The translations under genes and the position numbers were made by a program. Shown here piece after piece: positions 62,426 to 64,000 of a stretch of 64,000 nt of DNA (positions are counted from its first letter, which is position 1; each line of letters starts with the position of its first letter). A model generated the notes under the pieces. It worked only from the letters and a program-made list of their open reading frames with translations, searched no databases and was not told where the DNA came from. The stretch comes from Flavobacteriales bacterium (GTDB lineage Bacteria > Bacteroidota > Bacteroidia > CAIKAF01). The stretch is from the NCBI GenBank assembly GCA_025451235.1, contig JANWKT010000008.1, forward strand, positions 1-64,000. Direction: 5' to 3'.

Positions 62426-62576
62426 TGACCCTGGAAGGGTCATATATTGGTAGAAATAAAATTAACGCGAAATTGGACGACCCCAGCGGGGTCGAATGTT
62501 CTGGATATTCGACCCCGCTGGGGTCGTTATTTTTTTTTGTTATCATTTTTACCAATATATGACCCCTCCGGGGTCA
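62426..62576. repeat. BIME-like palindrome group (four REP-like units) upstream of the RAYT gene
   Basis: Four 17-nt palindromes occur: TGACCCT-GGA-AGGGTCA (62426-62442), CGACCCC-AGC-GGGGTCG (62478-62494), CGACCCC-GCT-GGGGTCG (62510-62526) and TGACCCC-TCC-GGGGTCA (62560-62576). The loops GGA/TCC and AGC/GCT are reverse complements, so units one and four, and two and three, are inverted partners. Flanks CATATATTGGTA (62441-62452) and TACCAATATATG (62550-62561) also pair, making the whole block one large nested inverted repeat. The pattern resembles the paired REP units of BIMEs in other bacteria. Confidence 0.85.
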
Positions 62577-62607
62577 GCTAAAGCAGGTCCAATTCTTTTT
62601 GAAGGTG

Positions 62608-62784
62608 CGACCTCGCTGGGGTCATTTTTGCTTATACTATTTTTTGTTACTGATATTCGACTCTTATGGAGTCGATTGATAAGCAAGCTTTATTAGCATC
62701 GAACCATACATAGTTCTTGACCTCAGAGAGGTCAAACATTGGTAACAAAAAGCAATCAATTGAATCCCGACTCCAGAGGAGTCG
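62608..62784. repeat. Further REP-like palindromes with compensatory stem changes
   Basis: Units at 62608-62624 (CGACCTC-GCT-GGGGTCA, imperfect), 62658-62674 (CGACTCT-TAT-GGAGTCG), 62717-62735 (TTGACCTC-AGA-GAGGTCAA, perfect) and 62768-62784 (CGACTCC-AGA-GGAGTCG, perfect). Relative to the upstream units the stem letters change on both sides together (CCC/GGG to CTC/GAG to TCC/GGA), so pairing is maintained. They fill the space up to 83 nt before the transposase start. Other than these the 487-bp gap from the VOC gene contains no gene. Confidence 0.8.
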
Positions 62785-62866
62785 CACCTCATTGGCATTT
62801 TTTTTCATTTTTTGGCTAGATTTTCAATTTTTCTTTATATTAAAGAAACTAAAATTGCTAAAAAAT

Positions 62867-63328
62867 ATGTCAGATACATTTTCGCAAATCCATATCCAGG
62901 TCATTTTTGCTGTAAAACATAGGCAAAGCCTTATTCATCAATCGTGGGAGGCTAAATTACATGGATACATTACCGGAATTGTTCAAAATAAAGGCCAGAA
63001 AATGTTGGCAATAAATGGAGTAGCTAATCATATTCATTTTCTTATTGGTTTAAGGCCTAATTGTTGTTTATCTGACTTAGTCAGAGAAGTAAAAAAATCA
63101 AGTACCGAGATGATTAATGATTATAGGCTAGTATCCAACCATTTTCAATGGCAGGAGGGATTCGGTGCTTTCTCATACAGCAAAGCGTCAATGGGGAATG
63201 TCTGCACATATATTCAAAATCAAAAAGAACATCACCGAAAAATAACATTTCGGGAAGAGTATATTTCGCTTCTCAAGGAATTTGAAATTGATTTTAAGGA
63301 AGAGTATTTGTTTGATTGGATAGGTTGA
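62867..63328 (+). CDS. Y1 transposase, REP-associated (RAYT-like), IS200/IS605 superfamily (153 aa)
   Basis: Small HUH single-strand endonuclease. The metal-binding motif is His55-Ile-His57 in ANHIHFLIGL, and the nucleophile is probably Tyr115 in CTYIQNQKEHH, with Gln119 as helper. The opening SQIHIQVIFAVKHRQSLI is typical. ATG 62867 was chosen; the longer in-frame frame to 62717 translates palindromic DNA. The family cuts hairpin-bearing single strands, and RAYTs mobilise or maintain REP palindromes. Here the gene lies within a cluster of such palindromes and alone (no TnpB), fitting a RAYT rather than an IS200 copy. All visible catalytic residues are intact. Confidence 0.9.
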   Translation: MSDTFSQIHIQVIFAVKHRQSLIHQSWEAKLHGYITGIVQNKGQKMLAINGVANHIHFLIGLRPNCCLSDLVREVKKSSTEMINDYRLVSNHFQWQEGFGAFSYSKASMGNVCTYIQNQKEHHRKITFREEYISLLKEFEIDFKEEYLFDWIG

Positions 63329-63339
63329 TTTTGAAAGTG

Positions 63340-63410
63340 CGACCCCGCTGGGGTCGATGAATTCCTTCATCAATTTTGTTTCTATAAACATCTGACCCTT
63401 CCAGGGTCAG
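63340..63410. repeat. REP-like palindrome pair downstream of the RAYT gene
   Basis: CGACCCC-GCT-GGGGTCG (63340-63356, identical to 62510-62526) starts 12 nt after the transposase stop, followed 35 nt later by CTGACCCT-TCC-AGGGTCAG (63392-63410), which ends at the stop codon of the HD gene. The order GCT unit then TCC unit repeats the arrangement at 62510-62576. Confidence 0.85.
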
Positions 63411-64000
63411 CTAAAGCAGGTCTATTTCTTTTTCTAAGTTTTGTTTGGCTTGTGCTTCCAACTTATCAAAAAAATATTCGGTCTTGAAGATCCTTTCCAT
63501 GGCTAAAAAATGTTGAAGCACTTTTTTACGTCCCGGGTTATAGATCAGATCCGGGTACATGGAATACTCTTTCCGAACATTTTTATAATAGGTGGAATAG
63601 ACCTCCCAACTTTGTCCAAGGATAGAAAGATCCGCATCGGTAAAATAATTGGTATCCATATCCGCATTGGGTAGATGTTGCTTGGTGGCCAGGATCTGGA
63701 CCTTGCAATTTTCAATGATTTCGGAGGGGACACCTATAGATTGCATTCTTTTCTCCGCTAGCTCTGCACTTCTCTCTTCATTGTCTTTTTTCAATGCATT
63801 GTAAACCACATCATGATAGAAAAGGGAGAATAAAACCGTATTCCAGTGCTTGATCTGAGGTTTTACTTCCTTCAATTCCTTCAGCAAATTAGCCAAATGC
63901 TCCAGGCTATGGTAATACCTTTTCTTTTTTGAATAATTCTTTTCAATTTCATTCCATAGCTCCTTGGCTAACGAATGGTAGTTCGAATAATTTTCGATCA
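63411..64000 (-). CDS. HD-superfamily phosphohydrolase, cut by the window edge (196+ aa)
   Basis: The reading frame enters from the right edge, so the start is not seen; a TTG at 63896 is only an internal Leu codon. The protein reads ...RYYHSLEHLANLLKELKEVKP, then LFSLFYHDVVYN (HD motif) with NEERSAELAEKRM, and TDADLSILG. YHSLEH and the HDVVY/NEERSA pattern fit the predicted metal-dependent HD phosphohydrolase group (COG4339-like). The metal set of two His, His-Asp and a final Asp is visible. The 3' end includes part of the REP-like palindrome region. Substrate unknown. Confidence 0.85.
   Translation of the reverse strand, partial: IENYSNYHSLAKELWNEIEKNYSKKKRYYHSLEHLANLLKELKEVKPQIKHWNTVLFSLFYHDVVYNALKKDNEERSAELAEKRMQSIGVPSEIIENCKVQILATKQHLPNADMDTNYFTDADLSILGQSWEVYSTYYKNVRKEYSMYPDLIYNPGRKKVLQHFLAMERIFKTEYFFDKLEAQAKQNLEKEIDLL

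Follow-up and report, generated by a model that had tools for sequence, protein, structure and literature searches.

The window, by which we mean the whole 64-kb stretch of DNA that was analysed, contains a gene for a Y1 (HUH) transposase with ten short palindromes on both sides of it at 62426-63409. The original prediction had taken these palindromes for ten single REPs with 3-nt loops around an intact transposase. The open reading frame is indeed complete, and all ten palindromes are present with a loop of 3 nt, but only eight of them are perfect over the 6-bp core while two contain one G-T wobble each (62609-62623 and 62659-62673). The actual element is not the single palindrome: the ten make up five copies of a unit of about 73 nt (65-68 nt from the first to the last core base), each consisting of two different hairpins with a tag at a fixed distance. 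The typical sequence of the C-type hairpin is CGACCCC-GCT-GGGGTCG, and the T-type hairpin has the sequence TGACCYC-TCY-GRGGTCA. The features of the region are:

62426..62495, minus strand: unit 1 (inverted; single-stranded DNA fold z -4.9), T-type hairpin 62426-62442 and C-type hairpin 62478-62494
62450-62453, plus strand: tag of unit 1, GTAG
62510..62576, plus strand: unit 2, C-type hairpin 62510-62526 and T-type hairpin 62560-62576
62549-62552, minus strand: tag of unit 2, GTAA
62577..62600, no strand given: second copy of the 24 bp at 63410-63433, where the neighbouring minus-strand gene has its 3' end
62608..62674, plus strand: unit 3 (degenerate), C-type hairpin 62609-62623 with one wobble
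62658-62674: hairpin in the T position of unit 3, one wobble
62647-62650, minus strand: tag of unit 3, GTAA
62718..62784, minus strand: unit 4 (inverted), T-type hairpin 62718-62734 and C-type hairpin 62768-62784
62742-62745, plus strand: tag of unit 4, GTAA
62867..63328, plus strand: Y1 (HUH) transposase gene, 153 aa, TnpAY1 subclass 1.2 as judged from its motifs; H55, H57 and Y115 present
63340..63409, plus strand: unit 5, C-type hairpin 63340-63356 and T-type hairpin 63393-63409
63382-63385, minus strand: tag of unit 5, ATAG

Unit 4 ends 82 nt before the start codon of the transposase gene, and the C-type hairpin of unit 5 begins 11 nt past its stop codon. Units 1 and 2 are arranged head to head and form a four-hairpin composite. 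The folds of the five window units, computed for single-stranded DNA, are 4.4-6.5 standard deviations better than those of shuffled sequences. RTAR is found at the exact tag position of all five T-type hairpins of the window (RTAG in two of the five) and at the tag position of none of its C-type hairpins. Loops had been described as coming in complementary pairs; the pairs AGC/GCT and GGA/TCC are real and result from the units lying in both orientations, but the window has no loop complementary to TAT or AGA. The region had been drawn up to 63433, but the last hairpin ends at 63409 and the extra 24 bp duplicate the 3' end of the neighbouring gene. The other copy of these 24 bp follows directly after unit 2, and both copies adjoin T-type hairpins. 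Together with the T hairpin, the 24-bp copy forms a direct repeat bracketing a block of 833 bp (units 3-5 and the gene), which is the trace of a local duplication or insertion.

The claim that stem changes are compensated on both arms was borne out. The 18 units compared, taken from the source genome and a congener, have a two-hairpin fold, and across them we counted 18 double-changed cells in comparison to a mean of 5.2 in shuffled units, with none of 500 shuffles being as high. The compensatory changes are concentrated in the T hairpin, and sliding the partner by one column abolishes the signal. Genome-wide numbers were obtained with pattern searches and covariance-model searches. Single palindromes are not rare (37 in the source genome versus 30 in the reversed control), and their count alone is uninformative. 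Palindrome pairs 15-45 nt apart occur 20 times in the source genome and not once in its reversed control, and the reversed-control pair count was 0 in all but one of 119 genomes.

The palindromes were also expected to recur beyond the window, and they do: the covariance model of the unit found 20 copies in the source genome and matches in 40 of 119 relatives. Presence of the gene tracks presence of the units, as had been proposed, with the Y1 gene found in 36 of the 40 genomes with units compared with 29 of the 79 without (Fisher p=1.6e-8, uncorrected for ancestry). In the four genomes with units whose gene search stayed below the strict cut-off, a degraded copy with three stop codons is left in G077 and a weak fragment in G112, and in G103 and G118 no transposase gene was detected. 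Six hairpin units lie in G103 (L070) without a detectable gene and are possibly orphaned.

The window protein matches Pfam Y1_Tnp and the IS200/IS605 transposase model NF033573 of NCBIfam (61.3 bits, cut-off 55), and profile search gave no match to RAYT models. Its AlphaFold model has a pLDDT of 92.4; the nearest solved folds in the PDB are the TnpA proteins of ISDra2 and IS608, with the E. coli REP transposase 4er8 ranking lower. The catalytic motif H55-I-H57 (NHIH, residues 54-57) is accompanied by W95-Q96 and by YIQNQKEHH starting at residue 115, and WQ and YIxNQ[KE]xHH are found in nearly all of 74 aligned homologues. Subclass 1.2 of TnpAY1 is characterized by Y---Q--HH, W then Q and a median length of 148 aa (Table 1, PMC6006769). 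By Y motif, WQ and length, and thus on sequence grounds, we assign the window protein to this subclass, although it has N where the DH[IV]H motif has D before the first H. The name RAYT given to it originally does not fit, since it is not a class 2 protein (Y---NP) but closer to IS200 TnpA. The source genome encodes five homologues, the best of them 66% identical to the window protein, which agrees with the low intragenomic copy number and divergent copies of the Bacteroidetes proteins of subclass 1.2. Two orthologous Y1 proteins (L110 and L112; G011:C51, G013:C1) carry Ala where the catalytic Tyr should be (AIQxQExYH), and an array of GCTTCC hairpins still flanks at least L112.

We compared 74 loci from relatives and 80 from named genomes, a set with 151 distinct proteins, nearly all from Bacteroidota. 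In the 1-kb flanks of the named-genome set there are 161 perfect GC-rich hairpins, while 8.6 are expected from shuffles. Their stems vary between genomes (GACCCC, GATGCC, TGTCCC, TGCTCC, CGTTCC and others), and most of them end at the loop as CC-loop-GG. In hairpins chosen without reference to the tag, RTAG is enriched at one position only, exactly 14 nt past the loop and 8 nt past the 6-bp stem. Across 285 kb of flank it stands there in 315-316 hairpins, which belong to 107 of the 151 loci; this rule was discovered and counted on one locus set in which many copies per locus are related. Other offsets have 4-18 each and shuffles about 2. The background is 2 such hairpins in 400 kb of the source genome away from the gene. 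In 273 of 315 hairpins the loop ends in A on the RTAG strand and hence begins with T on the CTAY strand. A second hairpin about 50-53 nt away (loop-to-loop distance 46-58 nt) was found in 224 cases in comparison to 2 in shuffles. The nearest tagged hairpin lies a median of about 80 nt away and points at the gene in 60 of 74 cases upstream and 52 of 78 downstream.

The strict tagged hairpin is absent at 44 of 151 loci. An early perfect-stem survey scored about half of the loci as negative; in many of these the same tag accompanies a shorter stem. No tagged hairpins lie near three distant Y1 paralogues of the source genome (C28:27794, C1:236023, C28:116893; L018-L020, L026-L028), nor within 3 kb to each side of the plasmid relatives L245 and L246 from Bernardetia and Persicobacter (54% and 39% identity). 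At L060 and L092 (G013:C1, G011:C44), Y1 genes in the window's family adjoin tandem arrays of about 51 bp, whose copy number differs between the two species. Nearly all GAC, GAT and GAA stems fall into one clade of the protein tree, which comprises 35 rows (SH-aLRT 99) and includes the window protein. Scored as GAC/GAT/GAA versus other, stem type changes 6 times on the tree, compared with a mean of 22 and a minimum of 14 in shuffles, and it thus follows the protein clade.

Units are not confined to the gene. Several sites in the source genome carry units without it (C7, C13, C17, C28), with tail-to-tail (C17), tandem (C13, C26) and single (C7) arrangements, and wherever this was checked the units are intergenic. 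The four-hairpin composite of units 1 and 2 recurs at C28:124237-124388 between unlike flanks. In G067, a discrete 228-bp composite of the form C-T-T'-C' lies at a site whose two flanks adjoin directly in the congener G023, an empty site; the insertion reaches beyond its outermost hairpins by about 6 nt at the start and about 7 nt at the end, with an alignment doubt of a few bases. The neighbour of this insertion (L069, ~1200-1342) is an unrelated repeat, about 140 bp long and dispersed in about ten copies over G067 and its congeners. The unit cluster at G103:C5 is missing from the orthologous intergenic region in G067 and G023, and the C7 unit of the source genome is missing in G001. The Y1 gene occupies an orthologous position in three Flavobacterium species, in whose genomes the strict unit pattern was found only beside the gene and no dispersed units were seen; dispersal is thus not universal. 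In the locus pairs L177/L195 and L101/L102, gene plus hairpins are common to both members, the flanks are mostly unlike and the ends imprecise. Because units are absent from orthologous sites in congeners, and because the gene is low-copy, divergent and fixed in position in the three Flavobacterium species, the units rather than the gene look mobile.

We consider it likely that the locus belongs to a REPtron-like system of subclass 1.2, in which a low-copy HUH enzyme acts on, and probably spreads, tagged hairpin pairs. Judging from sequence patterns, we infer that this enzyme would bind and cleave the units, choose the strand and mobilise them. A probably domesticated HUH/Y1 enzyme would recognise hairpins in single-stranded DNA, presumably on the lagging-strand template, with the two-hairpin unit 5'-NTNC-[C hairpin]-about 20 nt-CTAY-N8-[T hairpin]-3' as putative substrate. 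CTAY (RTAG on the other strand), fixed at 14 nt from the loop, may serve the enzyme for docking, as a guide or as a signal for cleavage. If IS608 and REP transposases are taken as models (PMC8266576), the tag might either guide the enzyme or itself be the site of cleavage, and the strand bearing CTAY, whose loop begins with T, would be the likelier substrate. The probable activity of the enzyme is to cut one strand next to the hairpins and join it again, which would yield inverted or tandem composites that may occasionally be inserted into intergenic DNA, while the gene itself would stay in place, held between inverted units.

The locus could instead be an ordinary IS200/IS605 element, with the gene and its nearest hairpins as the ends and the other units as decayed or miniature copies. 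Such an origin would explain the score above the NF033573 cut-off, the closeness of the fold to ISDra2 and IS608 TnpA, and the T first in the loop on the CTAY strand, which recalls the loop T contacted in IS608 and ISDra2 (PMC8266576). It is nevertheless unlikely in our view. The gene copies are few and divergent, near-identical full-element copies were not found in the source genome, the gene sits at an orthologous place in three Flavobacterium species, and units spread without it. The hairpins across the gene face each other, whereas the ends of IS200 are not known to be inverted repeats. Moreover, subclass 1.2 was described as being without IS properties (Quentin 2018, PMC6006769).

Hairpins in intergenic DNA, often between convergent genes, could also be transcription terminators or RNA regulatory structures to which the transposase is incidental or by which it is merely regulated, and the region has eight terminator-like sites where 0.8 are expected. 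This explanation leaves the fixed 14-nt tag distance, the fixed two-hairpin spacing, both orientations and the linkage to one transposase family across the phylum unaccounted for. Since the T run is also missing from most hairpins and no Rfam family reached its gathering score, we regard it as improbable. Matches to eukaryotic microRNA families of Rfam were far below the gathering scores and reflect an inverted repeat of about 155 nt. Least credible of all is that the locus is a class-2 RAYT/REP system of the standard Bacteroidetes kind (subclass 2.4 or 2.6). The closeness of a Y1 gene to hairpins that bear a GTAG-like tag recalls such a system, and the WQ motif is common to subclasses 2.4-2.7 (Table 1, PMC6006769), but the Y motif is Y---Q--HH and not the defining Y---NP, and the tag lies 8 nt from the stem on its 3' side on the GTAG strand, while REPs have GTAG 0-2 nt 5'.

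The REPtron-like system that we favour shares much with the class-2 REPtrons of RAYT/TnpAREP and REP, BIME/REPIN: a Y1 gene in low copy number with short hairpins on its flanks, stems specific to the lineage, a GTAG-like tag, and paired and inverted units dispersed in intergenic DNA apart from the transposase, as in REPINs and BIMEs. In contrast to these, the window protein belongs to class 1 (YIQNQ), RTAG follows the loop at +14 on the 3' side as the tag, in place of GT[AG]G 0-2 nt 5' of the hairpin foot, the unit consists of two different hairpins about 50 nt apart, and copies number tens rather than hundreds. IS200/IS605 elements (IS608, ISDra2; class 1.1) are closest in protein family and fold and have small-loop hairpins as substrates, but here there is no conserved gene-carrying mobile element with high-identity copies, and the flanking hairpins are inverted. 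CGTC-tagged palindromes are likewise short and were reported also from Bacteroidetes, but they have loops of 4-5 nt and a CGTC tag, and flank no RAYT (Di Nocera 2013, PMC3733652). RAYT/REP systems, originally said to be known mainly from Gammaproteobacteria, had already been described outside them, including subclasses 2.4 and 2.6 of Bacteroidetes (PMC6006769).

Subclass 1.2, the sister of IS200 TnpA, was listed with REP "no" by Quentin et al. 2018 (PMC6006769). The published automatic REP search accepted only stems of 7 or more pairs with GTAG or GTGG no further than 2 nt away on their 5' side (PMC6006769), and window-type units would fail it. The window protein shares with the published subclass the length, DH[IV]H/NHIH, WQ and YIxNQKEHH, but most Bacteroidota members studied here carry tagged hairpin units. 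The published description thus needs amending, rather than the membership of the window protein. Our searches of the open-licence literature yielded no account linking REP-like sequences to subclass 1.2, and judged on that literature the new element is most likely a REPtron-like system in a transposase group previously without a REP link. Whether subclass 1.2 even constitutes a third single-strand hairpin lineage beside IS200/IS605 and RAYT/REP, defined by a fixed loop-to-tag reading, an obligatory unlike pair and stems co-evolved throughout Bacteroidota, seems to us evenly balanced.

Subclass 1.2 was published as being without REPs, and the fixed tag distance now offers a directly testable candidate substrate for a widespread uncharacterised group of enzymes. 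The system would represent a second, independent case of a domesticated TnpA maintaining short hairpins in genomes, and it bears on the question why bacteria keep RAYT-like genes.
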